This document shows, one piece after another, positions 5,280-38,200 of a stretch of DNA of 64,000 nt. The stretch comes from Taxillus chinensis. Taxonomy: Eukaryota; Streptophyta; Magnoliopsida; Santalales; Loranthaceae. Positions within the stretch are counted from its first letter, which is position 1. The number at the start of each line of letters is the position of its first letter. Under the pieces are notes generated by a model. That model had not been told where the DNA came from. It saw only the letters and a list, made by a program, of their open reading frames with translations, and did no database searches. The DNA lies in the NCBI GenBank assembly GCA_023512835.1, contig CM042089.1, positions 56,072,907 through 56,136,906 on the forward strand, given 5' to 3'. The position numbers were made by a program, and so were the translations under genes.

Positions 5280-5282
5280 AAT

Positions 5283-8023: not shown

Positions 8024-8040
8024 GGTATGAATTTCTAGAC

Positions 8041-9649: not shown

Positions 9650-9670
9650 ACTACCACCAGGAGAAAGAAA

Positions 9671-11163: not shown

Positions 11164-11607
11164 CACGTGCAAGACTTAAAGATGGTCCATAATGCATAAG
11201 CAACGCAGTGGAGAAATTTGGGCCAGTTTGGGCCTGAACGTGAATTTGCACGTGAATTGCCCAATTCACGTGCACCTCCTTTTGAGCTGTAACTTTCTGG
11301 AATGGTAGATGAGGTCCATGTGATTCACGTTTACTCTTGCACGTGAATTTCTAGCTGTCATATGGAGGCCCAAAAATGCAAAATACCGATTTTAGCCCTC
11401 CTAGAAGCTTCCAACAATTCACGTGCAGAAGGGACTATTGCTTGCCAGCTCAAGGGGGACCCACCACCAAAGTTTGGGACGATTCTGACCTGCACGCCAA
11501 TTCAGCCAATTCACGTGCAGAGGCTATTTTGGTCAGAACACTCTGAAAAGTTAGGGGCATGTGTATCACGCCAATTGGAGCATCTTTCCTTCTGCACGCT
11601 ATATAAA
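11164..11607 (+). promoter_or_regulatory. Putative internal promoter of Athila ORF3: six G-boxes and TATA box
   Basis: CACGTG occurs six times in 354 bp (11164, 11249, 11267, 11340, 11420, 11512), each inside a longer AATTCACGTGCA-like word in either orientation. TATATAAA follows at 11600-11607, 126 bp before the ORF3 ATG at 11733, with a pyrimidine-rich leader between. By chance one CACGTG is expected per 4 kb. The layout mirrors the LTR promoter and suggests separate transcription of ORF3. Function is inferred. Confidence 0.55.
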
Positions 11608-11732
11608 GGGAGGCCATCTTCAAAGGCTTCCACACCAAAATCACTCCAGATCTGAGTATTAGAGAAACTCTGCCCTTTTGCTCTCTTGCTCTTCAGTTTT
11701 CTGCTCTTTGCTCTTATTTTCTCATTCCAAAG

Positions 11733-14090
11733 ATGGTGCGCACAAGGAGGACTGGCCAAGAGGAGGTGCACTCACCTAGTGCTGATAGCCAAACTGAGGA
11801 GGAGATACTCTTGGGGCATGCTCTTGATATGCAGGCTTTGGAGGCTTCAGAGTCAAGTGGGCTAGAGAGGTGGCTCTTAAAATTCAAAATCTGGGATTAC
11901 AAAGGTTAGTATCTGCCCAACCAGCTATTTCCTATTCTGCCCTACAAGAATTCTATGCATCTGTCTCTGGGAGTGAGGATGAACTGATAGGGGTTGTGCA
12001 AGGGGTTTATGTCAGGATTACCCCTGAAATTATTAGACATTGCTTTAACCTCCCTGAACCTAGTGATAGCTTCCCTCAGCTAAGCCTAGGAGAATTTGGT
12101 ACTGCATGCAACTATGCTAGAAAATTTCAAAGTCGAAGGCAGTTTACCAAGAATGGTTTTGTTGGAAAATTTAGATGCCTAGCTTACCTGGTAGGGAAAT
12201 GCTTATTGATTCAGACCAGTGGGCTAGATAGTGTGCCTAAGCCACACCTGGAGTTCATGTATAGCATTGATCATATGCTAAATGTGGATTGGGCCACTAC
12301 CATTTTTAAATGGTGGAAGAAAAACTCATCCAAGCAGATAAATGGCAGATTTTTGTGTTTGATATTTCAAAGCATGCCTGCTTTGCATTTTTCCTCCATG
12401 GATACCATTACTTTTCCTTCTCACTGGGTGTTAAGAGTATTGCATGCTGAAGGAGGTTTGGGGGTCAGTACCAGAGGTCATTGGGCAACCAATGTTCCTC
12501 CTCCATCACAGCCCGCTAGGCACAGTGTTCATGTGGAGCGATCCACGGACTTTGCAAGGGAGACCTCTCCTCATGTGGATCAAAGGAAGCAGACTCTATA
12601 CAGACTTACTGCCATGTACATGCAGTTCAATGTACATAAAGAAGATATTTTCAATTTCTTTCAAGGCATTAGTGGGCAAGTAGTGAGCGAAGTGGAGGTC
12701 ATCAATTGGGCAGTCACTAATGGGCACATCACTAGTGCCCAATTTGAGGAATTAATGGCCCTCATCTCTGGAGACCACCAAGCTACTTCACAACCTAGAA
12801 CCAGAGCATGGGAGGCTCCAGATGTAGCTACTCATGCATCACCTAGAGCATGGGAGGCCCCAGAAGCTCCTCCTGCTGCATCTACCGAAGCTTGGAGGCA
12901 AGAAACACAGCAGCTCAGGGAGGCAAATGCCAGAACCCAGCGCGAGGTGGAAGCCCTGAGGAAGGACAACAAAGAAGTTAAAGGCCTCCTAGGCAAAATC
13001 TGGAAGGCTTTGAGCAAGAGGAAAGCATCAAAACGTTCTCCTATAGTGGAGATATCTGATGAAGAACCCTCTCCATCCCCTGAAGATTCTTATCCAGCCC
13101 AGGCAGATCCACCTCAACCAGAACCTTCAGCTCAACCATCCTACTATCACCCAGAGGAGGCAGCTCCAACAACAGGGTCTTCACCCTTCCAGCCTCAAGA
13201 GGAGACAAAGCCACCAGAAGGGTATTCACCCTTCCAGCCTTTTACTGATCCTACATATTCTCAGGCTATTGTGCCTGTTATACATCCTGTCTCTTGGGGT
13301 ACATACATGCCTGCCGAACCTGAAGACCTTCTTGGCCCTCCTATCTATTTAATCATTGATCCAGCCATATCATCTGCTGAGAGTCAAGCAGCATTTGAAG
13401 ACTTCATTAATTCTCAGGTGTTAAGGGCTCGATTTGCAAGGGACATGGACCTCTTCACCTCGTTTGTCCTTCAAAGGATTTTAGGCGATGAATATCTATA
13501 TTCAGATGAGGTGGACTTGTTTTGCAGAACTATGCATTTTGTTGTGGAGGCTGAGCCTCATAATTACCCATTATCCCAGTATACATCCATTATGCTGTGC
13601 GAGCTTTACAACCAACCTTTGTCTGAAAGTGTGTGGCGCCAGCGTATCAATGGGCAGAATGAAGGGCACCGTCCTTGGCATGGTATGCACGAGGTGTTGA
13701 TCCCTATGCATATTGAACGTCATTATGTCTTGGTGCGAGTGGATTTGATCACAGGGCATGCGGTCTTTGTATGATCCAAGCCAAAATGAAGGGTTCAGCA
13801 GAAGAAAGAGACGGCTTGTTCATGGGCTTATCAAACGAATCAAGGATGCAATGAAGAAAGAAGGATTGTTGCAGGACAAGCTTCCTCTTATTCACCTCAA
13901 CGAAATGGAAATCCCTCAGCAGCCTGACCAATTCAGCTGTGGGATCTTTGTTTGCTACTACATGATGGCTATTCTGCAAGGGAAGGAAACTTGGGAAGTG
14001 CGCGGCGAGACGTTGGTTGACTTTGTGGCTCAGGTGCGACGAATGGTGGCCAATGTCATCTACTATTCAGGCTTGCCAAACCAGGGGTAA
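11733..14090 (+). pseudogene. Athila ORF3: Transposase_32-like domain fused to Ulp1-type (C48) cysteine protease
   Basis: The ATG at 11733 starts a short charged N-terminus. A frame change before about 11870 leads into 634 open codons, then a single-base shift near 13765 and a tail to 14090. Numbered from 11870: residues about 20-170 resemble the plant transposon protein domain found in Athila-type ORFs (ALQEFYASVSG, VVQGVYVRITPEIIRHCF, CLL, VDWATTIF); about 345-385 form a coiled coil; KRKASKRS is a basic patch; IVEISDEE (about 392-399) fits a SUMO-interaction motif; a Pro-rich stretch follows. The C-terminal part has the C48 set: His in RHYVLVRVD, Asp in YDPSQN after the shift, Gln six before Cys in FSCGIFVCYY. 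Desumoylation is inferred from family. A strong donor-like GGGGTAAGTAT abuts the stop. No signal peptide or membrane segment, so not an envelope. Confidence 0.75.
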
Positions 14091-15560
14091 GTATTTTCCT
14101 ACTCCCTATTTTATGCCATGAGGACATAGCATATTTTAAGTGTGGTGTATGGGAGTGACTTGAGCCACTTGCTTGTCTCTTATGTTGTGATTGCATGTTT
14201 TATTTAATTCTAAAAAAAAACAAAAAAAAAACTATTTTTAGTTGCATGATTGTTTGAGTTGTTTGCTTGAATGATTTGCTTGTGGAGACATGGATATTAA
14301 GTATGCAATTTTGGCTTAAAACTTAATTTTTATGCCACTTTAGTATCATGTTGTGATAAGGGTGTTAAAGTAGCTAAAATGTGCTCTAATTTGGTTTAAT
14401 CATGTCTTTATCTTTTGAATGATATCACCATGTTTTTGGAGCTGAGTTTTGAATATTAGCTGAGCATGAAATGCTATGATAGTCCTAAGTAACCCTTAAA
14501 GTTGAGTGAAAAAGAAATGCAAAATGAGAACAGCTTCTTTTTAGCCCTTGAGTGACATTTATGGTTTATGGGTAATAGTTTGATTTGATACTCATCTTGC
14601 ATTCAACATTGGTTATTTAATGGTAGGAGTCAAGTAAGCATGTGATTACTTATTAGTGCTCAGTGTTTGGTGTGTGGAGTTAGGATGCAAGACCTCTAAG
14701 TCATTGTGACTGTCTTTGCATTCTTTTCTTTATTGTGTGATATTATTGGAAAAGGCTGTGATATAAAATGTGAAAAAGCCATCACTTAATTGGGAAATGG
14801 GATGTGAGACATCAATGAATTTTTGTCTCTCCTATTGTAGCAAAATGGCAAGGGGTATGCATTAGAAAAATTCAGTCTTATTTATGTGTTATATGAGTAA
14901 AAAAAAGAAAAAGAAAAAGGAAAAAAATCAGAATAAAAGCCACAATGGCTTGATGTTTATGTGTGATTATTTAGATTTGTGAAGCCACATTGGCTGAATT
15001 GTGTTTTGTTTTGAGAGTGTTGAGCTCAATTCTTTGGCTCATGTTTTGTTTATTGAGTTTAGACCAGAGTGTGAGTTCAAATAAAGTAGAATAGAGAGTG
15101 TGTTTTCTTTGATGAGCACAATAGGGAACTCTCATGATTGCTTGGCAAGTACTTAATCAATAGCTGATAGCGAGTGTAGAGATAGAGTTTTCCATCCATT
15201 GTTCATTGATAGGTATTGAGCTTGAGAATTATTATATTTGAGTGAGGCTGCTTATCCTTGGTAAGAACTTAAAGGGAAACTAGGTGCTATTTTATCATGG
15301 ATTGCTTGCTCATATCTGAAATTTAAGTGGTGATATTGCATGGTTGTTGGACTAGGGATATGGACATGAATGAACTAAGCTATGACTCATTTTGATGCTT
15401 AAATTCTCATTTCATCATGATAGAGTTGCATGCTTAGGAAACCATGATTCTCTTTGATTGTTATTTTATTTTTCTTCCGTTTGACTGCGTGTTTATTTTA
15501 TTTTTGCATGCTTGTATGTTTTTTGCTTGAGGACAAGCAATGGTTCAAGTGTGGTGTATT
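14091..15560 (+). other. Athila 3' untranslated region
   Basis: No gene is seen. The region is AT-rich with A-runs (14213-14230, 14901-14928). It ends with the Athila-typical GAGGACAAGC...AAGTGTGGTGTATT segment (about 15530-15560). The purine-rich GTGTGGTG before the LTR is the probable polypurine tract for plus-strand priming. Confidence 0.65.
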
Positions 15561-17076
15561 TGATAACGTGCATTTTATGCCGTTATTCTAGTGTTTATTT
15601 AGGATGTTTAAGAGCATGATTAGAGCCTTATTGCTTCATATATCATATATATTTGCTCTAACCCCTAGGAAGATGCTATTTGCAAATACATGCGTTTTTA
15701 AGCTGTTTTGGCAGATTTTGGAGCTCACTTTTGACATAGTAAATGGCCTCAAACAATTGGTGTGCAAGAACAAAAGTTTCTTAGAATGATGTCATCTACC
15801 TACCACAGAAATTTCAGAGCATTTGGAGCTGATTTTGAGCTGCACGTGAATTCACCCATTTCACGTGCAAGCCTATTTTTGCCTCTCAGGCCTCTACAGG
15901 ATGCAAGGAAGCTTGGGGAGAAGTTTGAGCTAATTTGGAGGTGCACGTGAATTCACCATATCACGTGCAAATTGACGTGCAGAGATATTTTTGGACTGAT
16001 CCTATCGTTTTTCCATGCTGATCATTTGTTTCTAAAGGCCCAAGTCCAAATTGTGGATGGAAGATAGAGAATTTAAAGTTTCGAGTGTTACTTATCAAAA
16101 CTACGCCGTTTTGATAAGTGGGCTAGGTTACACACCTCAAGGCCCATCCAAACTCTATAAATACAGCCTCCACGCCCTCTGCTATGAAGGCCTAACCCCC
16201 CTACACGTTTTAGAGAGAGAGAAAGGCTCCACGACTTGGAGGTGCTCCTTGACCTAGGAGAGCAGCCGTCGCAGTCGCAGCAGCCGTCGCGGATTTTGGA
16301 GCCTGGATTTGAAGCTTTGCTGTGCGCGTGATCAAGAAGAAGATGTTTAGCTTTTCTACTATGGTTTTGCTTGTAATCATGCGTGAGTAGTTCTTATAAT
16401 CTAGGGGAGCAATGTAGCCCCCTTGTTGCTTTGCTGTGTTTATGAATATTGGGTTTGGATGATTGAAGTTTTGCATGTTTTATGAATCTGTTCTTAAGTT
16501 CTACCTTTGGATGTACACCTTGGTATTCTTAGCCCTAGTCTGGGGCGGATTGAGATTCATAACTTATTTGTAATTGGTGTGATCATTATCCTTTTGCAAG
16601 TATGATTTATTGGCTTTGCATGTTTATGTGTTTAGATGACCATTCTGGCATACAACTCTTAAAAGGACCTCAATGACCATTTGTTGTCCTTGGCTTATGT
16701 TTAGCATGTTTTCAATCAGACAACCCTAATACCATGAACCAATAGAGATAACATAGGGAGGTGAAATTGTGACCCTAGATGCTTTTAATCCTTGAATCCT
16801 AATCCTAAAATCAGTTTACTTTCTTTGTTTATTCAGAAAACCAAATAAAAATTAGATCTTTAGTTTAAAAAAGAAAACTCTTTGCCAAGACATTTTATAG
16901 AACAAGAGTAATTGGGTGTTTTGATTTGAGAACTAGAGAACTAGGCTAATCCCTGTGGGTTCGACCCCTTTCTTGCTGCTATTCTTTTAGTGCAAACTTA
17001 GGGAATTTATTATCTTGAAGAGAGATTTAACGACATTAGCTAGCTCTTTTAGAGAGGTTAAAAATCTCGTCTGTCA
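15561..17076 (+). repeat. Athila 3' LTR
   Basis: It has the same 1516-bp length and TG...CA ends as the 5' LTR, followed by the TSD copy CACGT at 17077-17081. It keeps all four CACGTG boxes (15843, 15862, 15944, 15962). Confidence 0.95.
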
Positions 17077-17694
17077 CACGTCCCGGATTTCCAACCTGAG
17101 AAAACCGGTTCGTAACTCCCCTTTACCCACCCGGTGGGCAAGGGGTTGGGATTAACTCCACACAAGACTTTACGCACATCCAGAATAAATATCCACAAAA
17201 ACAAAATCATATTATTAATTTCAAGCCATAATAAATGTTTACAAACCAAACATCCCTTTATTACAAATAAATTTCCCCTTACAATACCTCCCCACTAGAG
17301 TTATAAAGGTCCCACAAAAATTAACAACACAAAATAATGTTTAACAAAGCAATAAAGCAGAACTGTCCTCCACCTTGATGTTCCCTCCTAACGCCTGTAG
17401 GTTCCTGAAAAGTAAACAAAACACAACGGGAGGGGTGAGCAACCACAGCTCAGTAGGGATCATGTCTCCCCAACCCATCCCATGCTCCTAACATCTACCA
17501 GTTAACGTGCATGAGTGCAGTGTCGTCGCAATACTATACAGACAGACCATAATCAACATTTATACACAAACAAGCCACATCAACAAGTACAACCATTGCC
17601 ACAGCCATACAGGTTCCATAACCAGCCATGGGCTTCCATAGCCACCGGGCTCCATAACCAGCCTCGAAGGCTCCAGCTACACAGGCTCCAATCT

Positions 17695-17854
17695 CAGCCA
17701 CACAGGCATATAATCAAATACATAGCATGCATCACAGCCACACAGGCATATAATCAAACACATAGCATGCGTCACAGCCATACAAGCATATAATCAAACA
17801 CATAGCATGTGTCACAGCCACACAAGCATATAATCAAACACATAGAAGGCATCT
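17695..17854. repeat. 40-bp tandem repeat, four copies, in gypsy-1 LTR
   Basis: The word CAGCCA recurs at 17695, 17735, 17775 and 17815, each followed by a similar 34-base segment containing GCATATAATCAAA and, in the first three, ACATAGCATG. The period is exactly 40 bp and the copies differ at only a few positions. There are no spacers between copies. Confidence 0.9.
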
Positions 17855-18330
17855 CGATCAACAATCATTATATTAAACGTTTCCCCACATGAACCTACAG
17901 TGGAACAAAGCCTAACGAACAACACAGACATTCCCAACTGCCTCCAAGGCCCACTGCCACTCAACGAACCCCGAGAGTTCCCATACCCCGAACTCAACGT
18001 CAAAACCAAACAAAATATGCCATTGAACACCAATATCCATATAGGAGATCACACCTATATGGATTTACATATATATCTATTATAACAATAATTATAATAC
18101 TCTACAAATCATCCACCACAGGGCTTGACCCCGGAATGGGTACTAGAAGAGACAGAACCCCTACCTCAAAAGGCTCCTCTTTACTCTTGCTCCCATGCTA
18201 GACGTCGTCCACCCACGTGAATCACCACAGCAGCAACAATCAGGAACTCTCTCTCTCTCTGCGACGGCTGCGACGGCTGCGGCGGCTGGCGGAAAGAAAC
18301 CCTAAACCTAAAACAAAGAGAGCTCCTCCT

Positions 18331-18656
18331 TCTTATACAGACACCTCAACATCAAAACAATGTAGTTTTGATTAAGTAAACCCCAGCATCAAAACAACGT
18401 AGTTTTGATTAAACAGGCTACAACCTTCCCGCATCCACACATGACATAATACCCATAATTCAAACATGGTCCTTAAGGAAAAGATGATCAGCATAACAAA
18501 ACCAAGAAGACGGTGCAAAAACATGGCTGCACGTGACAAAGGCCATTGTCACGTGTAAGCTCCAAATGCCCTAAGATTTTGCTACAAGACTTAGAATAAC
18601 TTCTGGAAGGCTCCCATGCAAAAACACCACTGCCCATGACAAGCCATTGTCACGTG
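18331..18656 (-). promoter_or_regulatory. gypsy-1 U3 promoter: G-boxes, palindromes, TATA
   Basis: Reading along the element (minus strand), three CACGTG boxes (18651-18656, 18550-18555, 18530-18535) come first. Next is a segment containing ATGCTGATCAT (about 18497-18456), then two palindromes with 8-bp arms ATCAAAAC and GTTTTGAT separated by six bases (18388-18409 and 18351-18372), then TATAAGA (18331-18337). CACGTG is the core bound by plant bZIP and bHLH factors. The order matches the Athila U3 at 4065-4366. Promoter function is inferred from layout. Confidence 0.55.
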
Positions 18657-18837
18657 CACCCCCTAAAGGGTGCCCGCAATAACTTCTTGGGCTCATCTCT
18701 TACCTCAAGCTTGCCCATCATCATACAAAGTGTTCAGGCCAATGTGTGTGAGAATAAAACTCCCTAAAACCCAATAATTGCTACCCCAAAAGGCAAAACT
18801 ATGACTAACTTCACATCCCAAAACACGGGTCATTACA

Positions 18838-19811
18838 GCTTTGCATTGGTTTGTGATTATAGCTTTTGGAGGATAGTTATCCATACACATCAACCAAGTT
18901 TCAAATAACCATTTAAAAGTTTTTGTATCTTCATTGGATAATAATCCACAACCCAACAACATAGAATTGCCATGATGATTTACGCTTACAAAAGGAGCAA
19001 ATGGCATATCGTATTTATTTGTCAGATAAGTTGTGTCAAAGGTGACATCATTTCCAAAAGCTTGAAATACTGCCCTACTCCTTGTGTCAGCCCAAAATAC
19101 GTTTCTTAGTCTACTATCGTCATCCAAGTCGATTGCATAAAAAAAACCACTCTCTTTTTCCTGCTTCCGATTAAAGTATTCTTGGAGGGCTGAACCATCT
19201 CCCTTTCCAAGTCTCAATTGCCTTTCTTTACTAATATAATGTCGACAGTCCCTTTCATCGAAACATAAATTTTCAACACCCCCTGCTTCAACAACTAAAG
19301 ACTGAAAATTCTTGTTCATTTGTATTCCTACTCAATCATTTAGATCCAATCTTCTCTTCACATGTGGATCTAACCTTTTATTACATCTCATATACCTTGT
19401 TTTTGTTGGGCTTAACGAATGATTATGTTCAACACAAGCGCTTTGCAATTTATATTTCCCATTCGGCTGTAAAATTACATTTATCCTAATTTTATAATTT
19501 GTTTTCACTGAAAGTCGAGGGTTTAGTGGACTCTTGGATGTTGTTTTCCTAATCCGTGATTTATAACAAGCATATGTGCACCATCTCTCAAGTCCATTAT
19601 CTCCACGTTTACTATCTCTTTTCATCACACCAAAACCTTTTTGCCTTCCATACTTTCTATAGTACTCATAACAATCTTCTAACTTATCAAATTCCTTACC
19701 CACCTCAATTTCCTCAATCACATCCTCACCATCACTCACTGTAATCTCATTACCAGTAATATTACATACTGCATCATCTTTTCTATTAAGCATTCCATCT
19801 ATTGTAACCAT
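18838..19811 (-). pseudogene. FAR1/FRS-type gene fragment, cut by gypsy-1
   Basis: From the ATG at 19811 the product has an acidic start, then a FAR1-type DNA-binding domain (VGKEFDKLEDCYEYYRKYGR...GFGVMKR...CTYACYKS...CVEHNHSLSP, about residues 37-140). An in-frame TGA lies at 19332-19334. The same frame resumes with NKNFQSLVVEAGG and the start of the MULE-transposase-derived domain (VTFDTTYLTNKYDMPFAPFV, then ETWLMCMDNYPPKAIIT). Coding is cut at 18837 by the gypsy-1 LTR. FRS proteins are nuclear regulators derived from Mutator-like transposases. This could be a host FRS relic or a MULE transposase; the C-terminal SWIM zinc finger is missing. Confidence 0.85.
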
Positions 19812-21175
19812 AGCCTACAAATATAATAGCAATTACAATGATAAAACCAACACCAACGTTATAGGAATTAATAAATGGCCATATATATGCACTTTTAAAT
19901 CTTCAAGCAATTTTATAAATATTAATTTCTTTTACTAACGACATAAAATTTTATACTAACGACATAGGAATTAATGCAGTTAATTAATATTATGAGTGAA
20001 AGCAAAAATTTTATATGTGTGTATATACATAAAATTATAAATTTTAATTATATATATATGTATATATATATATATGAACTGATGATTTAAAAAATTATCT
20101 CGATTTAGTTCATTAATATTTGAATTTTTAAAACTTAAAATGATATAAAAAAAATAGTATATGTGCACATCAATACTAATATATATCGAATTCATAATTT
20201 TAAAAGTCTTAAAATTAGATAATATAATTCACAAATATAACACATCATGTATTATTGTATTAACAAATCATTTTAAATAAATAAATTTAAAAACATCAAA
20301 TAAAAGTAAAAAAATAAGTAAATGATAATATTATTCAATTCTGTTTGATTTAAACCGCGGTTTTAAAATTTCAAAACAAATCAAATCGATAATATTATTT
20401 CGTTTCAAATCCAACTAAATTGATTTTGTTTTGTTTAGTGATTTGATAAATTAAATTGGTGATTTTGGAGGGTTGGTTTGTATCGATTTTAATAGTTTAT
20501 AGTTAGTGGCATTTTTTTATATAAATGCCGGCTGCCGCATTGCATTTTTGCAGTGGCATTTTATAAAAACGTTGTCTTAGGCGCTTTTCAAAAACGCCAC
20601 GAAAAAATTATCGCCGTAAAAAAAAATAACACAGCTATTATTCACTCTAACGGCCGGCTTCCCACAATGCTGCATGCATGTTCCCCTACTATAAACATAT
20701 ATTTTCTTTAAATTAGGAAAAGGAAAAAACAGAAGACAATTTTCAGATATATATTTCTGTAATCTTTCTGTGACCCAACTCACACCCACAAATATAAAAC
20801 AGCCGCCGCCTTCATTTATTAAACCCACCGCTCTAGCAAGCTAGCTTCCCAAATCCCAACCCCCTCCACACTTGACTTTTGTAGACAATAAGATCATAAA
20901 ATAGCCAAAGACTGACTTTTCCATATCATATCATATCCTAGCTACTATTATCACATGTACTTCCCCCGCTTTCACCATCAAAATCACTCTCTTCCTTCCC
21001 AGTCCCACCACCATTCTCCTCTCCTGCTTCTTTTTGAGTGCATGGCTTGCGTATGTCTTCCATATCCAGCTAGCCCTTTTTTTTAAAAAAAACGTAATGA
21101 CAAAATTGCCCCCCTACTCGATCAGGTATCAAAACCTTTGATTTCATAGGCCGTGGACATCGTGGGAATGAAGAT
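19812..21175. other. AT-rich intergenic region 3' of the HD-Zip gene
   Basis: No gene is recognised. It contains TA microsatellites (about 20049-20076). At 20505-20600 there are short inverted words of the type GGCATTTTT...AAATGCC and GGCGCTTTTCAAAAACGCC, reminiscent of decayed CACTA-type non-autonomous elements. The last 300 bases (20880-21175) are less AT-rich and would include the HD-Zip 3' untranslated region. Confidence 0.55.
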
Positions 21176-22607
21176 TTATGGGACCCCCCATGTTGATCTT
21201 ATGGGCGATGACCGGGTGTAACCTTGACCTAGTAGAAGCTGGTTGCACCAATCAGTAGCTGTTGTTACGGCAGCGGCGGAAGAGGAAGAAGGCGCCGAAG
21301 ACGCGGCTCGAGCACGATCACACGAGGGGCACATGGCTATGTTTGTGGCAGGGGGCATATGCATGCAGAGGTGTTGTGGGGAGTGTTTCAGTGCTCGCAG
21401 CTCCTGCACTTCCTTCTGCAGCCGCTTGTTCTCTCCGCTCAGCTTCTCACAGCACCTCTTCAAGTACTGGCAGTCCACCTCCGCCTGCTTGAGCTTTGTC
21501 CTGCATGGAATTCTTGTCAATGCCTCTTAATTGGTTCTAGTAATACTCGTGTATCTTTCCAATAATGTTGTTTTCAAACTTAATTAATATATCAATCTGA
21601 AGCTAGGTGTGTGTGTATATATATATATATATCCCTTCGCCTCAGCCCTGTCCGGCAAGCCCTGTCCGGCATGGTATTTATTATGTCAATACTCTCGGTT
21701 CTAGTAATAATCTTGACTCATGTATATTATATTTCTTGACAATCTAGTTTTCTCAGACTTAATATCAATTTTAATCTGTACTAGACATCTCACGTTTCCT
21801 TCAGCTTCGTCCTGCATGGAATTTATGTGAATGCTCTTGCTATATATCTCAATATATATAGTCTTTTCAGACTTAATATTAATCTTTATATATATATATA
21901 TATATATATATAAGCGCAATTAAGATCACGACCACCGTTCCAACGAAACAGTTTCTTTAACTATCGATCAGCACCATGCTACACCTAAATAAAATTGCGG
22001 TCTGGGACCGTGATCACAATTTCATCTCTTTTCTCTTTGTATTTTCATTCAACAGTTTATAGATGTAACTTTTATAAACATGCAGCTGGTTACGCATTCA
22101 CAATTTATCCTAAATTTATATTATATATATATATATGCACACGTGTAAGAAGAAAAGGGCCACTATTGTGATCCGACAGCTTATAATATATATATACCCC
22201 TGTCTGTTTGACGTATAATTTAAATGGTAAAATATCAATGGTGATTCAAACTAACAGCATTACTTAAGAATAAGATTGTCGTATTATAAAATAATAAAAA
22301 AAGAAAAGAAAAGAAAGAAACGCTTGAAGAAACAGGAAATTTTATATATATATATATAGATATCAAATTCTGATATATAAAGTAATAAAATTGTGATAAT
22401 AAATGATATAGATTATATTTTTATCTAACTACGAGAAAAAAGGTAATAAATGAATAATTAAATAAAAATATTATTTAAATCGTTTGTGATTGAATGATTA
22501 TAATTATATCTGTGCTCAATGCATTTTTTAAAATATATCAGCAATAATGAATAGATTATTTGAATTGTTAGTTTATAATTGAATGACTATAATTTTTTGT
22601 CAGCCAA

Positions 22608-22638
<31 letters not shown>

Positions 22639-23697
22639 GACGTCGACCGGATGTGAACCTTATTTTGACTTTTCATCCCGCAGATTTGGGAGAATCCACT
22701 ATTAATCCAAAACATTATTAGAATTTCATGTTCTATTTTTTGGGTCATAATTTTACTATGACGATAAAGCTCTTAGTCAATAAGAAAATAATTCACCTTG
22801 CCCTCCTGTTTTGGAACCAAACTTCAACTTGTCTGGGGCTCAAGTTCAGCTGTTGCGCCAAAGTCACCTTTTGTTTCTGATCAAAGAGAAAAATAAAAAG
22901 AAAACGATATCATGAATTAATGAGCAAATTAAACGCCCTTTGCCGAGGAAGAAAACTACAAGAATGCCACTAGAAAGTAGAAACTCACGGGATTGATCGT
23001 GTTGTGTGTCTTGAAGGTGCCCTCCAGCACCCCCGTCTGTTCCTTGGACAGCCTCAGCTTCTTCTTTGCCGACGCCGTCTCCTCCTCTTCAAAGGCAGCT
23101 CCGCCTCCGCCGAAGTCGTCGTTGCAGCTTCCAGGTGAGCTCAACGCCTTTCTCAACTCCCTCTCGCTTCTCTTCCCGCTCAAGCTCGACACCGTGCTGT
23201 AAGGCGGCGATGGCTGAGGACCGCCGCCGCCGTCTACGCTGCCCTCCTCCCACTCCACTGGCGGCGGAGTCCAATTCATGTCGACCCCTCGTAGGGAAAA
23301 TTTCTCCGCCTTCGATGAGTTTACATCTGCAATATCGAGATACCCTGAAATATACCACGTTAATCCAGATAAGAAGAAACAGAATTATTCAAATATATAT
23401 AATTGAGGTGAGAATATATATATATATATATATTAATATATATATATATATTAATATATACGTATATATATATAAAGGCTAATTAGGAGAAATATTTTGC
23501 CGGGAAACAAACAGCTGGTTCTAATTAAGGACATGGAATTGAATATATGTAGGCATACCTTGAGATTGAAGTACTGGGCGGTTCCATATGGGATTCCTGT
23601 GATCGTAAACTTTCTTTGAATTGGTGATCATATTTGATGGGTTTTGTCCCAATCTCAAGCTTAACTCCAGTTGCCCGTCATCCCTGTTCTCAACCAT
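21176..23697 (-). CDS. HD-Zip class II homeobox-leucine zipper transcription factor (HAT family), four exons
   Basis: Exons on the minus strand are 23697-23559, 23344-22989, 22876-22797 and 21500-21176, giving 900 nt and 299 aa. Splice sites are canonical: donors AAG|GTATGC, CCC|GTGAGT and AAG|GTGAAT; acceptors TTTCAG, GATCAG and ATGCAG. An EAR-type LELSL repressor motif lies at residues 10-14. The homeodomain (about 138-194) has helix 3 [11 protein letters not shown], followed directly by the leucine zipper (about 196-235). The class II redox motif is present as CPSCD (249-253; usually CPSCE). These proteins are nuclear, bind CAAT(C/G)ATTG-type sites as dimers and usually repress transcription in shade and auxin responses. 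The frame is complete, so this is probably a functional gene. The exact HAT member cannot be named. Confidence 0.92.
21489..21840 (-). repeat. Triplicated exon-4 acceptor region inside HD-Zip intron 3
   Basis: The exon 4 acceptor segment (TCCATGCAG followed by GACAAAGCTCAAG on the minus strand, 21500) recurs at 21811 as TCCATGCAG/GACGAAGCTGAAG, and in degraded form near 21655-21680. Flanking words (GAATTC/TTTATG, GGTTCTAGTAATA) are also repeated. Local tandem duplication of about 150 bp therefore copied the start of exon 4 into the intron. Confidence 0.7.
21501..22796 (-). other. HD-Zip intron 3 (1296 bp) with TA microsatellites
   Basis: The intron is strongly AT-rich, with TA runs at about 21615-21632, 21885-21911, 22346-22360 and 22610-22634 and a GA/AAAG stretch near 22300. 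Apart from the acceptor duplication there is no other gene or conserved element visible. Confidence 0.75.
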
Positions 23698-23979
23698 CTC
23701 GTTTCTTCTTTTCCTCTTTTGAGAGCATTCAAATATCCCCTGATTTGGTTTTCCTGGCTGGGAACAAACAACAAACCACGTACTCTCCCATGAAGAGTTG
23801 CGATTTTGGTCTCGTGTCCCTACAGCGTGTATATATATATAGAAATTAATATAGAGAGGAGGGGAAGAGAGAGAGACTAAGGTACATGGTATGTTCACAT
23901 GGATTTGTTATAATTAATCTATATAAGCTTTATATATAAAATCTACCATACGATGTATATATACCATAGCGGATAGGAG
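23698..23979 (-). promoter_or_regulatory. HD-Zip proximal promoter and leader
   Basis: The 282 bp between the HD-Zip ATG and the DNA transposon hold the leader and proximal promoter. The interval contains a GA run (23855-23877) and TA repeats (23831-23840, 23950-23962). No single TATA box can be chosen confidently among the TA repeats. Confidence 0.45.
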
Positions 23980-24873
23980 GAGAGACGGATCCAGACATTT
24001 TGGTTAGGGGGAGCCGAGTTAGTAGTTATACATGTTTGGTATTGCTTTCAAAAACAGTTTATGTTTTTGAGAACATAAAATACATGTTTTTTCTTGTTTG
24101 GCAAATGATTCTTATTTTAGTTTTTAGAAACAACTTGTTTTCAAATGCAAAAAATAAAAATACGTTTTTATGTTTTTATTTTTTTTCAAAATCATTTTCA
24201 GTCGTATTCCAACGCCCCCACATGGTGCCTGCGATGCCACACGCTACACTCTTATGACGCGACCCTCCCCTTCGACATGACCCCCGCCTGTGCCCCCATG
24301 GCTGCGACTCGAGCTCTCGTCCCCTGTAGCCGCGACCCTCCCCTGGCGATCCCCCCCCTCTCCCGGTGACAGGACCCCCCTCCTGCGATGCCCCGCCGCC
24401 GACGCGATGTGACCTCCCACCCTCCTGGGACGCACGCGATCCCCCCTCCCCGCAACGCCCCGCCGATGACGCGACGCGACACACATACACACACCACAAA
24501 TACAACCCCCTGCTGCCGCGGCCGATGCAACTCCCTCGTATTTTCAATTCCAGAAAATATTTGCCAAACAAAAATATTGTATTCGATTTACTAAAAAATA
24601 ATTTACAAATACAATTTCTAAAAATAAATTTTAAAAACAAAAACCAAAACACTACGACAAATAATATAGTTTATTTTCTTATTTTCTACTGGTACTATCT
24701 TGCATCCTACGTCCCCGACTAATAGAAATAAAAGGCAATAAAAATAAAACGCAAAAAAACCCATAAAAAAAAACGTAAAGCCATCAAAACCCATCATATA
24801 CATGCTTAACCAATTTTTTCTCAAAATTGGGGGCGACCATGGCCCCCGCCGGTCCCCCTCCAGATCTGTCTCT
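23980..24873. mobile_element. Non-autonomous DNA transposon (894 bp) with 9-bp TSD, upstream of HD-Zip
   Basis: The 9-bp sequence GGATAGGAG occurs at 23971-23979 and 24874-24882. Between them the ends are imperfect inverted repeats: AGAGACGGATCCAGA on the left and AGAGACAGATCTGGA on the right (reverse complement). A 9-bp duplication fits Mutator-like elements; if one base is incidental, 8 bp would fit hAT. There is no transposase. The interior has an AT-rich part and a GC-rich part (24210-24530) of repeated CGCGACCCTCCCC-like words. Confidence 0.75.
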
Positions 24874-24882
24874 GGATAGGAG

Positions 24883-25052
24883 CTTATAGCTAAGCCCCCC
24901 AAAGCGCCCATGAAGATGTTTAATTAGCCTACTAGCAGCCAGCCGAGCTATATACGAGTAATGCTACGTGTGATAACATAGCAGAAGAAACAAAAAAAAT
25001 CATTGTCATTCAATCAATCACACAGGGGGGCTCCAAATTTTAGGGTGCCTAA
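24883..25052. other. Short flank between two transposon insertions
   Basis: These 170 bp separate the DNA transposon and the miniature LTR element. No coding or regulatory feature is recognised. Confidence 0.6.
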
Positions 25053-25410
25053 TGTCATGGGGTCAGGGTTTTCACCTGTGTGGTACTCGATCATCCTGGT
25101 GGATGTGCCGAGTAAGTCAGACCGATCGGGGCACACGTAGACTGGTTTTGCTCTGCCTTGGGCTCATCAGGAGAACGGCTCTAGTTCTCGACCAGTTTAT
25201 GTAGGGATAGCCAAGTCCCCTCTTCAACGTCAAGTCCGAGACTAGCGGCATACTCTCCGCATTTAACCGGGTCGGTACATCTGAACTCCGAAGGGGCTCC
25301 ATCGATCTCCCGCACAAACTGTCGTGGAGCCTATCCCGTCCGCACTAGCTATGCTTTCCGCTCTGCCCCTCTGGAAGTAGCGCACACCTGCGCCACTTGG
25401 GAGACGTCCG
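25053..25410 (-). repeat. TRIM-like element, 3' LTR (outer part)
   Basis: This is the first 358 bases, in plus direction, of the left LTR, interrupted by the copia element; the remaining 28 bases are 40188-40215. It aligns with 40509-40867 and includes an extra segment of about 27 bases near 25205-25230. Confidence 0.85.
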
Positions 25411-27206
25411 TGTAGGTCCCAAAGTGAGTCTAGAGGGGGGGGGGGTGAATAGACTTTTGTTGCGTGCGGAAGCTAGACTGTTAGCTAGTTTTGGATTCCT
25501 CTGCAGATGACTATGATGGAAGTATTTGTGGAGAAGACGACAGTAGTATTGTGAGCGATAATGTGAGTGATGATGAACTATCAGACAAAACTGAGATAAG
25601 AGTAAATGCTCTTTTCTCAACAGATCTCAGTTGTGAAAGTGATGGTTTGTGATAGATCGACGTGTGGAAAACAACACGGAGATTAGACTTAATGAAGTGT
25701 TCGATCTTTGGTGAACAAGAGGTTCTTGAATGATCAGATGGCTTACTCTTGTTCTTGGTTCAATGCGGCGCACAACACTTCTTCTATTTTTCTCTCTCAG
25801 AGTCTTACTCTCTCGTTGTTGGAACACTCTTATTTTGGTTCCATAAAGGATTGTTTATATCAAGTGTGTTAGAGCCATTTTCTTGTGTACTGTGTGTTTC
25901 CTTCTTTTGAGAGAGAGATTAAACTCATAATTTTGTCGTTAAGTGCATGAGAGATATATCTTTAAGATTAAAGTGCTCATGCGCCATGATGTCCATCCCG
26001 ACAGTCTGACTTCCCGCCACTGAAAATGCGGAGTGTCAGGGGATGGGTTGATTTGCTCTGATTTACAGATCAGATGCCCATACTGCATTTTTAGCATGCA
26101 ATCGATCTTGGTTGTTCATCTGTGGATGGTAGTTGGCAGCAATTAATGGGTCATTAAATGCGCTCAACTGCTCGGGACGACGCAGGCTTACTGTACAAAC
26201 CCTAGCCAACAATATTGCTAAGTGGCTGTGTTTAGGGTTGTAAGTTTGCCTCGGAGGTGGATGCCTCGTAGGTTAGGAGACTCGAAGATTTCAGCTAGCA
26301 CCTGTAGAAAGTTGCGAAAGTTACGACTCTACGAGTCTGCGACTCTCCGAATAGCGCTTAGAGTGACTTCTTCGATTACAGCTGATCGACCTGTTATTGG
26401 AGCTATGAGTCTACGACTCTAGCTCTACGGGTCTACGACCTTCGGGTCTCTCAGTTTACTATATTTGACTAGGTGGTCTGGAAATCTTCGACTCTACGAG
26501 TCTTCAACTTTGCTTTTCTTCCTTAGTCTTTCACAGAGGTTCATAAACTGAGTTCCTCTATAGCTACGACCCTTTGACTCGGTGACTGTGTCCCTGAGTC
26601 TATGAGTCTACAACTCTACGACTCTTGAGTTACAGTTTCGTTTGTTTGCCAGTCTTTACAGCATCGATTCTTCGACCTTCAACCTACAAGTCTACGAGTC
26701 CAGTTTTCTTAACCGTGTTCAACAGCTTTGACTTTATGACTTCCGATCTACGAGTTTGCGAGTCCTGTTTTCTTAACAGTGTTCGAAGGTTTCAACCCTA
26801 CGACTCTACGAGTCTTCGAGTTAAGTGGCAATTGAAAGATCTGTTAGTTGAAGTGTTTGTGGGAGACTCTATGAGTCTACGAGTCTACGAGTCATTTAGC
26901 GTTGGTTACTATTCTTAACACTGCTTCGACTCTACGAGTCTCTGAACTTCGTTGACGCTTACAGTAAACCTTTCTTTTCCGTACCATGACTCTACGACCT
27001 TCGACCTGGATCTACGAGTCGCAATGTTCTGTCACTATTTCGCCTTGAGTCTCCAGACTCTACGAGTCTACGAGTCTCTTGCCAATACGTCCTATGACAG
27101 TTTCACTTCTATGAACTTCGACTCTCCGACTCTACGACCGTCGGTTCTTCGAGTCTCCAGACTTAGACTATTTGAGGCAGCTTCATCAAATTCTATATTT
27201 CTAACA
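25411..27206 (-). repeat. Copia 3' LTR
   Basis: In plus direction it begins TGTAGGTCCCAAAGTGAGTC followed by a run of G, and ends TATTTCTAACA. Its distal 900 bases (about 26250-27160) are packed with short words such as CTACGAGTC and CGACTCTACG. Confidence 0.93.
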
Positions 27207-27621
27207 ATCTCCCCCTATTTAATGTAAGCTGACGGCATGTATTTGTATGAAGTCTGAGACTACAAGTTTTATGGGCAGATTTAGATTAATTAGAAGATGT
27301 CTTTGCCTATAAAGAATTTGAAGGAGTGTGCAAAGGGTTAGCTAGAAATGAATACTCCCTCGTAGGCCGGAAAGCTGCATTTGCCTGGCTCCTGACAAGG
27401 AGAACTCCCCCTACGAGCTGGCTCCCCCTGAGATGAATACTCCCCCTTTCTGGGGTGAGGAACAAGCACCAGAACATAAACCAAGGGGAGCAAGGGAATA
27501 AGGCACAGAATAGCAGACAGCATAGCAAAGACAGACAGAAAAGATAACTGACAAAAGAATAAGTACACAGACATGTGAAAAGCATGAGATACAGTGTACA
27601 TGTAATTAGAGTATAGGACAG
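27207..27621 (-). other. Copia 3' spacer with repeated polypurine-like runs
   Basis: On the minus strand AGGGGGAG-type runs occur next to the LTR (27208-27216) and again near 27404-27412, 27420-27430 and 27440-27450. The run abutting the LTR is the likely plus-strand primer. Repeated tracts are known in SIRE-type elements. No ORF is evident. Confidence 0.7.
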
Positions 27622-30616
27622 TTAGGGGTTAAATTCAGAGTACAAGACATTCTGTGTAAATAGAAAAACAGCAGTTTGCTCGCGCAGGAGTTGAGCAGGA
27701 GTCAAGTGTAACGAGGCCGCTCGACTGCTCACACGATCAAATTCAGGCACGAGAGCTCGAAACCCGTTGGTAGTCAAGATGCGAATGTAATAGCAAACAT
27801 AAAAGCCACAGCTGTGAGCATCATCCTCACCAGGAACGCCTTGCTTGACTCGCGTGATTTCCATCGGTTTGGTGAGAGGATATCCACCACACCAATGTGA
27901 AGAACCCTGCATGACATGGGTGAGAGTGGGATTGAACTCACGAAGTTGTTCACGTCGATGGATGAGTAAGGTACTGGGTTTGGAGTCGAAGATGACGATC
28001 CTTTGGTTCTTGAAGTCGATGTGGAGAAGAAACCAGTGCGGGGATGTGGACAAGTACAGAATCAGCACATGGTCTACCTCATCCCAAGGAAGGAAGGAAT
28101 GCTCATATCTGCGACCTTGTATAATCTCGAGCATAGCTGCATCATTGAGCAGCTGAGCCTGCATGATCGGCAAACAGAGTTCCACCTTGGTATCGCAGTA
28201 GATGTGAAGAGGTAGCTTCGCAAGAAAGGACTTCTGGGCGAAGATGAACTGAGTCATCTCCAGGTTATCCATTTCTTCACCGTCATGAAGTAGGCAACAA
28301 AGATCAGGTCCAGTGAAGAAGGCTTCATAGCCGCAGGTCCTCGCAATGGTATCCCCAAAGAATGTAGGTGTTGAAAGCAGCCAGTTCAACTGAGGTGCCT
28401 CCAGTAGTCACAATGTGAGGTGGGGCTAGAGCTTGTTTAGTAGTGGTAGCGGTTGGCTTGACAGGTGAGGTAGGCATGGTATACTCAGCCATACTAGGAT
28501 GTGATGTTGAAGGACCTGGCTGAGTGGAAGAGGATGGTTGGCAAGGAGTAGTAGTCTGTTTCTTCATGCGGGTTGCAATTGGAACATCATCATCATCATC
28601 ATCAGAGTCTGAGATGACTGTAGTTCTGTGTGCGCGCTTTCTCCCCCGTGTGTAAGTAGCAGTAGACTGAGGTTGTGAGTGACTTGGAGGAGGTGCGGCT
28701 AGCTGTGAAGTTTCAACTGGTTCAGGTGCAGGCCGATTCGATGGTTGTGGGAGAGTGCTTTTGACAGTGAGGGATATCTCACCACTTTCAAGACAATGAC
28801 ATTCTGATAGAATAGCTCCCAGAGTTATACTGAGGCCTTTATATTGTCTTTGGTAAGCTCCCTTGAGGTCTTCACAGTGCTCTTCTATATGTCTAAATCC
28901 ATCAGTGGTTGTACTTGTGAGTGATGTCATTTCTTGCTGCACCTTGTCGAGGGTACGATCTGATGATTCAACTTGCGTTCGTACCTCTTCCATGCTGGAC
29001 TCCATAGTAGCCAGTCGTTCCTCAAAGGCCTGAGAGACTGAAGCTTTGAAGATGCCAGAGGACATCAGTTTCTCGATGACCTTGCTGTCCAGAATATCTA
29101 CTTCTTCAGTCGACAGAGAACGTGAGTGAGACGCAGCTGGTACTGGAATAGCCATTGGGATATTGGCTGCGAACTCCTCACTTACCTGAGTGGCCACCTG
29201 ATGAACGGCATGCACAGATGGTGTGGCCATCCCAGTCCTTTCCACAGTCTCAGGAACCTGTGGGACAGCTCCTACCTCGGAGTCACTAGCTGCAGCATCA
29301 AGATTTTCTTCTTCATCTGCTTCTTCGTCCACCGCAGTTGGTACTAGCTCATCATCACGTCCTGCTATGGTAGGTGAGTCCACCATGATAGGAGATGGGG
29401 CAACCATTGATACTACTTCCACTGGGTCTCATTTTACCAGACCCTGATCAACCAACCAATTAATCAGATGGTCTCTATCTACCATCTGCTTTCCAAAGGC
29501 CATATGAGCCTTTCGCAAATCAACGGGAGTCATATGAGCCTTGGCATACTCCATATAATATTCTTCCAGCTCAGACTCTCCAAGAGTGCTCAACAGTACA
29601 GGTGTAGTACCCCTATCCTCTGGGGTTTCCTGTGCTGGAGTCTGCCCTCCAACTGCAGGTTCTCTTACTTCTGCAATATCCTGGGGTAGTTTGACATTAG
29701 GGGTCTCCTCAGGTGTAGAATCTGTGGGGAGATGAGTTCTGGCAATATTCTCCACCACTTCAGTTATATGTATTGATGCTGCGGATGTAGAGGAGTCCCT
29801 GGAAGTCGGTGAGACACGAACCGGTTGTCGTGGCATGCGAGCTGGGGCTCGTACAGAGCTAGCTGTGTCTTCTGCACGACTTCTAGCACTTGACTCAGTC
29901 CTTCTCAATGACTTGATCTCCAGCCGACCATCCTCATAAATACTTTTGAATATGTATTTGGTCGGCAGTGGCACTGAGGGCCTGTTGCAGAATACTTCAG
30001 GGTGCAGAAACCTAAGGACTTTGGTGAGAATAAGTCCAAAGTGTCCTTTCTTGGTTTTAATCATGGAGTGTATTTGTGTACCCCAGTCTACTCATCTGCT
30101 TTGTAGAACACTACACATGATCTTCATCTGCTCATAACTTGCAGAGTCATGAGCCGTCTTCTTGCACAGTAGGCACTGTCCAGTGACTATCAGAGTCGCC
30201 AGTGCCTGACCGGAGAAACCCATCTTTAGGGCTCCCCGACCTTGCTTTCCGGGATCGGAGTATCCAAGGAAAGGCTTACACTCTTCTCTAGAAAGATTGG
30301 GAAGAGGATCAAAAGTACCTTTTGGGAGCGAGAGTGCATTTCGGAGTGTTTCGACAGAAACTTGAATCTCCACTCCTTGTACAGTTCCCACAAGGTCGGC
30401 TCCAGTGAGTACCATAGTCTCGTAAAATTCTGCAACATCTTCTATCAGCAAGTCTTGCATCCCTGAGCAAACAGATGCAACACCGGTTTCATCAAGGCGA
30501 TTTTTGAATTCGTCCAGCCAGCTGACTCTGGCGTCGCCTATGGCTTCCCAGTCTATGATGAATCCCGGGATGATGTTGTGTAGGTTGTCTGCCATCGATG
30601 AGCTTGGTTCTGCCAT
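27622..30616 (-). pseudogene. Copia ORF3: Transposase_32-like domain fused to Ulp1-type (C48) cysteine protease
   Basis: The ATG at 30616 opens a frame of about 997 codons, interrupted only by TGA at 30092-30094 and at 29429-29431 and by one frameshift near 28390. N-terminal residues about 45-185 match the Athila ORF3 domain (AEFYETMVLTGADLVGTVQGV, GQCLLCKK, VDWGTQIH). A helical segment HLINWLVDQGLV parallels Athila's VINWAVTNGHIT. A coiled coil (about residues 470-570), a basic patch GRKRAHR and the SIM-like TVISDSDDDDDD follow. The C-terminal 250 residues form a C48-like protease: His in SPHWFLLHID, Asp in VIFDSKP and Cys in AHSCGFYVCYY. Desumoylating activity is inferred from family. No signal peptide or membrane segment is seen. 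Confidence 0.75.
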
Positions 30617-30801
30617 TGAGCTTGTAGAGAGAGAAAAAAAGAGACACTTGTATAGAGTGATTGTAAGCTTCGAAGGTGGTCAAAGGAAAGAGGAAGAGAG
30701 AAAGAGACAGAGTCGAAGAGAGAGAGAGATCTAGGGTTAGGGTTCGAGTGTGAAAACGACGAGCATACCTTTGGGCTCCGTCTCCATCTGTAACTTATAT
30801 A
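30617..30801 (-). promoter_or_regulatory. Putative own promoter/leader of copia ORF3
   Basis: On the minus strand TATATAAG (30794-30801) is followed by about 180 bp of pyrimidine-rich leader. The leader includes a double telobox (AACCCTAACCCTA, about 30734-30747) and CT repeats, typical of plant 5' untranslated regions, and ends at the ATG at 30616. Further upstream, two ACGT-core words (about 30928-30937 and 30971-30978) could bind bZIP factors. Promoter function is inferred from layout. Confidence 0.5.
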
Positions 30802-32477
30802 TGAGGTGAGAAGCATACCGTAGAAGTTACAGACTTTGTCGGTTCGTCTTCAGGTCCGCGTTCTTTTCTCTGACCCGTCTCTTTATCTCCCGGATCCACC
30901 CGTTGGAAGATTCAAGCGATAGGTACACGTCACCCCTTATGTCGGTGTGTAGGTTCCATTTTAAGTGCACAGTGACGTGCTGGCATGTCTACGAGGCTTG
31001 AATAGTAAGTGATAGACTCCGTCTCGCTACGATCTGTTGAATTGCGACGCTACAAAGCTGGATGCTTCGAGGCTATGACCCTCAAAGCTTCGAGGCAGCA
31101 CATGATATGCACTTCTTCAATCCCGCACTTCTTCGATATAGTTGCTTTGAGGTCAACTGTGAATGCAGCGAGTGGTGGATTTCTCTGGACTTTTCAACAC
31201 TTAACAACACACATGAGATGCATATGACAATTCACATGATATTATTCATGATGAACAGTGTTGTGAGTGGAATTGAGATCACATGTCCAGAGCTTGGTTT
31301 ATTTCAACCGAATGTCTGATTTACATGTATGGCAACTGTATCACTATCATTGAAGTCTCCAATTACCTTAGAAATGATTAAGTATATCATCATACAACAT
31401 CATGTGTCAGAAGGTGATCACTATGTTAACATAGCATCCAGTAAACCATGATTTATCCATGTTAACAACCATGTCATAAAATCTAAGTCTTCTCACTTTT
31501 CATCAAAACTCACTCAGCGGAGGCCTCACCCTCTCACCCTCGGATCAGCATGTGAGCTTGATTCAGGAACTAGAATTATACTGTATAATTAAGCTCATGG
31601 TCAACCGAATCTTACCACAACCCTGATCCAGCAATGATTTTCAGTTCAGCATAGATGACTTGAGAGACAGGATGGCCCTATTGAGAATCAGAACACACAC
31701 TCTATCATTGTAAGATTTACAACACAACAAAGTACAGGTAGAGTTTGGAGTTTGATCATTCAGCTGGTCTGTGTGAGTTGTCTCTTTTCTTTTGTGGAGC
31801 ACAATGTTTCGGTGCTTTACATGAGTCTTTTTTTACAAGGACAGAGCTCAACACAGTATCTTTTTGAATCATATGATCATACATTTTGATCTCCAACTAT
31901 TGCTATAACAGAGACACAATCTGGGAACAGTGAGGACTCCCCCTAAGATAGGCATTTAATCTATTGTCTATTATCATTTTGCCTTTTTCACCTTGCCTTT
32001 TTTTTTCAGTAAAAGGTAGTGGCTCTTCTTGAGTAATAGGCTTTTTATGATTCTCAAATACTACAGTCTCAGTTATCCTTTGATCATTAAATCATTGAGG
32101 ATCCTTTCCGTGCAGGCCAACAACACCATGAGATACAACAGTTCCTGCTAGTTAATGAATGCAATGCCACACAGGTGATATTCTCTCAGAATGAAATAAC
32201 AGGTAATGGGAATATCTTCTGATGAAAATAAGGAAAATTGCACTCATTTCACTCAAGACTTGAGAGTTTATGACAGGTTGCCCAACTGACGTGAACCAGG
32301 TTCAGAGGTAGCAAGTTTCATCCATGTGATTTCTCACTTCCTAGCAGCAGATATGCATGAATCACACGTAGTCATTACTAATTTTCATGAAGACATCATC
32401 AGTTATTAACAGTGTTATACTTATGTTAATCGCACAGATAATTAGGTTGAAATGAAACACAAGACATGCGGTGAGTC
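30802..32477 (-). other. Copia spacer between pol and ORF3
   Basis: About 1.7 kb without a convincing reading frame on either strand. Short cores like those in the LTR (GCTTCGAGG, CTACGAGG) appear at 30990-31100. The rest has ordinary composition. Confidence 0.6.
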
Positions 32478-35640: not shown

Positions 35641-35702
35641 TTGATCTTTTGTTTCCGGTAGCTACTTTCAGCTTCAAGTACCTATTCTTGCACATAGAGC
35701 AA

Positions 35703-38149: not shown

Positions 38150-38186
38150 GTCAGCTAGTAGGGATGTCTACAGAGTAGTAAAACCA

Positions 38187-38198: not shown

Positions 38199-38200
38199 AT

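Follow-up and report, generated by a model that had tools for sequence, protein, structure and literature searches.

A 64,000-nucleotide stretch of the Taxillus chinensis genome (assembly GCA_023512835.1, contig CM042089.1; hereafter the window, within which all positions are counted) contains two long terminal repeat (LTR) retrotransposons of different superfamilies, an Athila-type Ty3/gypsy element and a Sirevirus-type Ty1/copia element, that carry the same kind of third gene. In both elements this gene, which we call ORF3, follows pol on the same strand and precedes the 3′ LTR, and in both it ends in an Ulp1-type cysteine protease domain of the C48 family. That the two genes are homologous and that each carries a C48 domain we regard as very nearly certain. 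Taken as a whole, the observations are best explained by one accessory gene common to both superfamilies whose product was a nuclear SUMO protease directed against silencing, a reading to which we assign a probability of about 0.4.

A preliminary description of this DNA, made from its letters, had placed the two genes at the positions below with common blocks in the same order, and reading frames, BLASTP and shuffle tests agree with that placement.

11733 to 14090, plus strand: Athila ORF3, accessory gene with two frame changes (reading frames, Pfam)
27622 to 30616, minus strand: copia ORF3, accessory gene with two in-frame stops and one frame change (reading frames, Pfam)
11888 to 12370, plus strand: Transposase_32-like N-terminal domain of Athila ORF3 (PF20167, E 2.4e-6, 28 bits)
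30095 to 30550, minus strand: N-terminal domain of copia ORF3, homologous to that of Athila (BLASTP E 4e-17; tblastn against the window E 7e-20)
12590 to 12760, plus strand: INW helix block, well conserved against a relative outside the window (alignment, shuffles)

Athila ORF3 is read through open pieces at 11607-11909 (Met at 11733), 11828-13774 and 13749-14090, and copia ORF3, on the minus strand, through pieces at 30679-30092 (Met at 30616), 30091-29429, 29428-28325 and 28407-27622; these pieces were searched one by one rather than as joined proteins. The strongest link between the two genes is the N-terminal domain (N-domain), where 39 of 145 residues (27%) are identical. Seven Athila-versus-copia comparisons were each set against 1000 shuffles. 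The N-domain scores 156 (shuffle mean 29.7, maximum 56; none of the 1000 reach it), and shuffles likewise never reach the scores of the Cys block of the protease (63) or of the VDW (51) and INW (39) parts of the copia middle piece. A single shuffle in 1000 reaches the score of that whole middle piece against Athila (52), as does one for the block that precedes the protease and contains its His (47), and three reach that of the linker (68), a weak comparison of low-complexity sequence. Two-sequence BLASTP is clear for the N-domain and for the 18-residue Cys block (E 2e-5), these two only, and weak for the other blocks taken singly (VDW, E 0.015; INW, E 0.055; His, E 0.09). Chance similarity of the two genes is ruled out by the shuffle tests. 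Capture of unrelated host fragments, an outcome the preliminary description had named as fatal to its proposal, is opposed by the N-domain homology and is unlikely given that both domains and the intervening blocks keep one order. When the ORF3 pieces were run against the window by tblastn with an E limit of 1, no third copy was found; the copia protease had two weak matches, at 50553 (E 0.015) and 8056 (E 0.04), which lie in or near gypsy pol and were therefore taken as chance.

The N-domain had been called Transposase_32-like in both genes, and here the earlier description needs correction. The Pfam match in Athila spans residues 21-181 of the 11828 piece and its 28 bits fall short of the curated cut-off of 45 bits, while copia ORF3 has no Pfam match to Transposase_32; the two N-domains are nonetheless homologous to each other. 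We therefore name the domain Transposase_32-like only, and the copia copy is tied to Transposase_32 solely through its similarity to the Athila copy. Against sequences in the PDB the N-domain returned one chance match, a peroxidase (E 0.29). The window also holds a third element, of gypsy type, whose gag is preceded at 45661-46155 by a DUF7745/PMD-like open reading frame; BLASTP detects no similarity between this frame and the N-domain. Further along ORF3, a heptad pattern stands ahead of the linker motif, reached by 0 of 500 shuffles in Athila and 1 of 500 in copia on a home-made measure, as would befit a coiled coil.

The protease is the domain on which the proposed function turns, and its identification is firm at the level of family. 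A profile check for a C48 fold in both genes had been called for, and both C-termini exceed the curated Pfam cut-off for Peptidase_C48 (PF02902; 20.7 bits), with 30.2 bits in Athila and 44.8 bits in copia. The expected His, Asp and Cys follow one another in order in both ORF3s, and their codons can be located.

13721 to 13940, plus strand: Athila C48 active-site residues (His 13721-13723, Asp 13773-13775, Gln 13920-13922, Cys 13938-13940)
27808 to 28038, minus strand: copia C48 active-site residues (His 28038-28036, Asp 27987-27985, Cys 27810-27808)

In Athila the His lies in a different frame from the Asp and Cys. The ending SCG(x)FVCYY, previously given for both genes, is exact in Athila (SCGIFVCYY) and altered in copia (SCGFYVCYY). 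The residue that follows the active-site His is Trp in copia and Tyr in Athila; a Trp in this place has been tied to a preference for di-glycine (PMC6759571). Searched against the PDB, the Athila Cys block has yeast Ulp1 (1euv) as its best match at E 0.027. Among the 33 matches of the Athila piece at E up to 1, five are SUMO proteases (Ulp1, SENP1 and SENP2) and 26 are one ribosomal protein, and the four matches of the copia piece are at chance level, with SENP1 among them at E 0.99.

Between the heptad pattern and the protease, both genes have a linker in which basic residues stand immediately ahead of a hydrophobic-acidic stretch resembling a SUMO-interacting motif (SIM).

13016 to 13066, plus strand: Athila linker, basic cluster KRKASKR followed by SIM-like IVEISDEE (KRKASKRSPIVEISDEE)
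28586 to 28648, minus strand: copia linker, basic RGRKRAHR followed by SIM-like VISDSDDDDDD (RGRKRAHRTTVISDSDDDDDD)

Scored post hoc as at least four Lys or Arg in the 12 residues preceding a SIM-like motif, the joint pattern is produced 13 times by shuffling the Athila linker and 24 times by shuffling the copia linker piece (20000 shuffles each), and it occurs in four of the 177 open reading frame pieces of at least 80 amino acids in the window, two of which are ORF3. SIMs are thought to be located in the N-termini of Ulp proteases (PMC6759571). The linkers lend the anti-silencing role indirect, post-hoc support.

A relative outside the window bears on whether the gene is more than a local accident. 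The N-domain alignment, run against about 5.8 billion proteins, had a single match, a 300-residue open frame on a 1005-base contig (P0001) that is 46% identical to the middle of Athila ORF3 (140 of 302 alignment columns). In this comparison the INW block ranks with the best conserved parts, and the heptad pattern recurs at the matching place (0 of 500 shuffles). Confinement to this one copy, the other outcome that was to have counted against the proposal, is thus contradicted for the gene; P0001 stops short of the protease and therefore shows existence elsewhere for the gene and not for the protease. The Athila-type accessory gene, as judged by this alignment, is not confined to the present copy, and P0001 could even come from the same plant. 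Searches of the same protein collection with the main Athila piece (E limit 0.001) and with the copia protease (E limit 0.01) had no match, which means little in a collection that is seemingly poor in plants. No relative came from viral contigs, for which the queries were the Athila piece, alignment A4 and the copia protease, or from bacterial and archaeal genome contigs, for which alignment A4 was used.

We propose that both ORF3s descend from one two-domain accessory gene, which here occupies the env position, as a third gene, in an Athila and in a Sirevirus element. Its product would comprise, in order, a plant-mobile Transposase_32-like N-domain, the helix block, a coiled coil, a basic and SIM-like linker, and a C-terminal Ulp1-type cysteine protease. 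The coiled coil could form oligomers, and the basic residues could mediate nuclear import; the SIM-like stretch, together with the N-domain, may recruit the product to SUMO-modified proteins of the pre-integration complex or on element chromatin, where the C48 domain would remove SUMO and so weaken SUMO-dependent silencing. A nuclear SUMO protease is the best-supported function for ORF3. That the protein acted on SUMO is, in our estimate, an even bet, and that it served anti-silencing is doubtful. The broadest form of the idea is a long shot by comparison: that one SIM-guided nuclear SUMO protease gene spread across Athila and Sirevirus, and that part of what is called "env-like" in plants is a deSUMOylating anti-silencing system parallel to the Ulp1-bearing VANC genes of Mutator-like elements (MULEs).

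Several observations weigh against a nuclear SUMO protease with this role. Enzymes of the C48 family also act on other ubiquitin-like modifiers. In copia a Glu (27828-27826), six residues before the Cys, occupies the position of the oxyanion-hole Gln of Ulp1-type proteases, which Athila retains. The AlphaFold models are of low confidence (mean pLDDT 33.5 and 42.6), and Foldseek searches gave no match at E up to 0.001; the weak Foldseek hits of the copia protease, 304 in all, do include Ulp1 entries (2hkp in fourth place, E 1.2), and these we do not count as evidence. The joint linker pattern was defined once the sequences had been inspected, and its SIM-like part is by itself common, arising in 1.3% of Athila-linker, 5.6% of whole-Athila-piece and 11% of copia-piece shuffles and in four proteins of a scanned set of 22. 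Athila and P0001, unlike the copia linker, match a stricter nuclear-signal pattern, and P0001 has the basic run without a SIM-like motif. DUF1985, the domain of the anti-silencing VANCs, has no match in ORF3 at E up to 1, in a search where HMMER filters discard most weak matches. Finally, neither ORF3 copy is intact, and a product expressed from either locus today need not be active.

The alternative that survives best concerns origin and is compatible with the proposed function: the N-domain and C48 may already have been joined in a third donor, either a DNA transposon or a host gene, from which each element captured them separately, with no transfer between LTR elements. The large divergence (27% over 145 residues) suits this account, as does the occurrence of C48 genes in plant MULEs (PMC13317346). 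The equal position and orientation of ORF3 in the two elements speak against it, short of excluding it, and so does a 3′ open reading frame of a sunflower Athila element whose partial similarity to Transposase_32 makes the N-domain look resident in LTR elements (PMC11728184). On balance we consider separate captures rather unlikely.

Less probable again is that the C48 domain removed ubiquitin, NEDD8 or another modifier, or bound one without cutting. Family membership does not fix the substrate, and the Glu in place of Gln in copia and the His-Tyr in place of His-Trp in Athila leave room for such a change; the SIM-like motif in both linkers and the SUMO proteases among the weak PDB matches (5 of 33 for Athila, 1 of 4 for copia) favor SUMO. 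We think it improbable that the protease instead cut the element's own proteins in a maturation of viral type, although some DNA viruses do process their proteins with related proteases of clan CE. An aspartic protease already belongs to the gag-pol of LTR elements, which modestly disfavors a maturation role, and maturation would leave the SIM-like linker unexplained; the traces of that aspartic protease are themselves weak here, comprising in Athila a Pfam match to Asp_protease_2 at E 0.089, under its cut-off, and in copia the string DSACS, presumably an aspartic-protease motif, in the frame 34992-35681.

Just as improbable, to our mind, is that ORF3 was a functionless passenger in either element. 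Its broken state in both would fit, but the gag-pol genes of both elements are broken too, so breakage tells little about ORF3 alone; order and catalytic residues have been kept despite 27% identity in the N-domain, and P0001 keeps a frame open over 300 residues with 140 of 302 columns identical. An envelope-like gene, suggested by position and by the env-like genes with which Sireviruses and Athila are often credited (PMC2829016, PMC7264820), is rejected, as the preliminary description had anticipated in finding no envelope features, since an enzymatic domain is present instead and none of the seven ORF3 pieces has a transmembrane-like segment (highest 19-residue Kyte-Doolittle mean 1.35).

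The elements that carry these genes are each bounded by two LTRs and a target-site duplication (TSD) and have recognizable gag-pol domains, which bears out the earlier placing of ORF3 in the env position after pol.

3764 to 17076, plus strand: Athila-type Ty3/gypsy element with both LTRs, 13.3 kb (LTR pair, TSD)
3764 to 5279, plus strand: Athila 5′ LTR (LTR comparison)
5282 to 5300, plus strand: Athila primer-binding site TTGGCGCCGTTGCCGGGGA (also written TTGGCGCCGTTGCCGGGG), directly after the 5′ LTR
5483 to 10876, plus strand: Athila gag-pol (gag, reverse transcriptase, RNase H, integrase) in several broken frames (Pfam)
15561 to 17076, plus strand: Athila 3′ LTR (LTR comparison)
25411 to 40182, minus strand: Sirevirus-type Ty1/copia element with both LTRs, 14.8 kb (LTR pair, TSD)
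38201 to 40182, minus strand: copia 5′ LTR, opening with TA instead of TG (LTR comparison)
32481 to 38138, minus strand: copia gag-pol, broken (Pfam)
27207 to 27621, minus strand: linker with four copies of the polypurine octamer AGGGGGAG (motif count)
25411 to 27206, minus strand: copia 3′ LTR (LTR comparison)

The Athila LTRs are 1516 bp each and 98.2% identical (Kimura two-parameter distance, K2P, 0.016), and the 5-bp TSD CACGT flanks the element at both ends. Its primer-binding site we take to be of the tRNA-Asp type. Pfam matches Retrotrans_gag, RVT_1, RT_RNaseH, Integrase_H2C2 and rve; the last gag-pol frames, whose end at 10876 was set by reading, have no Pfam match in two frames past the integrase core. 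Athila elements are distinguished by having gypsy reverse transcriptase, RNase H and integrase but lacking the extra RNase H found in Tat elements (PMC6317226). No sign of that extra domain appears in the interval from RNase H to integrase or in the two frames that follow the integrase core; by this standard, as well as in domain order and spacing, the element fits the Athila type.

The copia element has LTRs of about 1.8-2.0 kb (K2P 0.043; 202 gap columns), the 5-bp TSD CGGAC at both ends and the primer-binding site ATTGGTATCAGAGC (also written TGGTATCAGAGC). Pfam matches Retrotran_gag_2, Pol_BBD, gag_pre-integrs, rve and RVT_2, and the last gag-pol frame, which reaches 32478, has no Pfam match. 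At a substitution rate of 1.3e-8 per site per year, the LTR distances would date the copia insertion to roughly 1.6 million years ago and the Athila insertion to roughly 0.6 million years ago. A mark of Sireviruses is an octamer, AGGGGGAG, that stands exactly 10 bp ahead of the 3′ LTR and recurs several times close by (PMC2829016). Here the last copy begins 10 bp ahead of the 3′ LTR, four copies fall within 415 bp and one more lies in the upstream linker, so that the element is of Sirevirus type by its polypurine octamers. The CGG-CCG palindromic repeats of Sireviruses have no copy in either LTR or in the linker; this motif, found in the LTR and before env, is present in just 13 of 21 elements (PMC2829016) and is therefore not strictly required. 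A different palindrome, GACTCNNNGAGTC, has six and five copies in the two copia LTRs (25411-27206 and 38201-40182), these 11 being all in the window, and resembles the repeated Sirevirus motif in kind, without the CGG-CCG core. Outside the two ends of the element, 25053-25410 and 40509-40839 are 83% alike across about 350 bp, and the element was perhaps inserted into repeated sequence.

Elsewhere in the window are a broken FAR1/MULE-type transposase-related gene (18705-19814, minus strand), a reverse transcriptase piece with a LINE-like look (RVT_1; 62408-63373, minus strand), a 236-bp tandem duplication at 99% identity (41753-42224) and an array of 40-bp repeats (17652-17891).

A common gene with an identifiable enzyme domain makes the function of the env-like third gene of Athila and Sirevirus testable and, if the reading is true, implies either gene sharing or a common donor spanning both plant LTR superfamilies. 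Extra open reading frames of Athila and SIRE elements (eORF-3′F, aORF, env-like) lie, like ORF3, between pol and the 3′ LTR on the sense strand, and in Athila such frames are known to encode Athila ORF-1 or Transposase_32-like domains (PMC6317226, PMC11728184). The 3′ frames of SIRE elements have been sorted into 19 groups with little or no mutual similarity, for which fast evolution or independent sources were proposed (PMC6317226); in contrast to that heterogeneity, the copia and gypsy ORF3s described here are homologous. The main text of PMC6317226 does not name C48 or Ulp1.

The precedent nearest in logic is the VANC genes of Vandal MULEs, among them Kaonashi (KIU), which like ORF3 are accessory genes of mobile elements with an Ulp1 domain, and the Ulp1-bearing VANC (KIU) genes reportedly bring about hypomethylation in related elements (PMC13317346). 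VANCs carry DUF1985 (PMC5735166), and PMC5821449 lists an Arabidopsis "Ulp1 protease family protein (DUF1985)" while showing Athila and Ulp1 as separate Arabidopsis genes. KIU and VANC sit in DNA transposons, whereas ORF3 belongs to LTR elements and has no DUF1985 match, so we take the relation to be one of analogy rather than membership. Animal Ginger1 transposases also bring Ulp1 onto a mobile element, together with a gypsy-type integrase (PMC2836005), but there Ulp1 is C-terminal and fused to a DNA transposase, whereas ORF3 is a separate frame of LTR elements.

Sharing of one enzymatic ORF3 type by unrelated retroelement lineages is known from bdelloid rotifers (PMC5408684), where the enzymes are a GDSL esterase and a DEDDy exonuclease rather than C48, and orchid gypsy elements with an N6-methyladenosine (m6A) demethylase supply a plant gypsy element with an enzymatic accessory frame, of another enzyme (PMC9289625). 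The latter study of 25,565 consensus sequences from 121 angiosperms lists 15 recurrent atypical domains, in gypsy only, and its main text does not mention C48, Ulp or SUMO. Ulp1 and C48 are likewise absent from the main texts of PMC7264820 and PMC11963269, Ulp1 from PMC4093653, and Ulp, SUMO and protease, the three terms sought there, from the main text of PMC11728184. Supplements, subscription papers and domain databases aside, the literature consulted contains no report of a C48 domain in an LTR element of plants, and those sources may well include annotated plant proteins that join Transposase_32 to C48. The basic residues ahead of a SIM-like motif in both linkers are a new observation of a pattern drawn post hoc. 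An accessory frame with a captured enzyme domain is thus of a known kind, and what appears to be new is the C48 domain and its sharing between copia and gypsy elements in plants.

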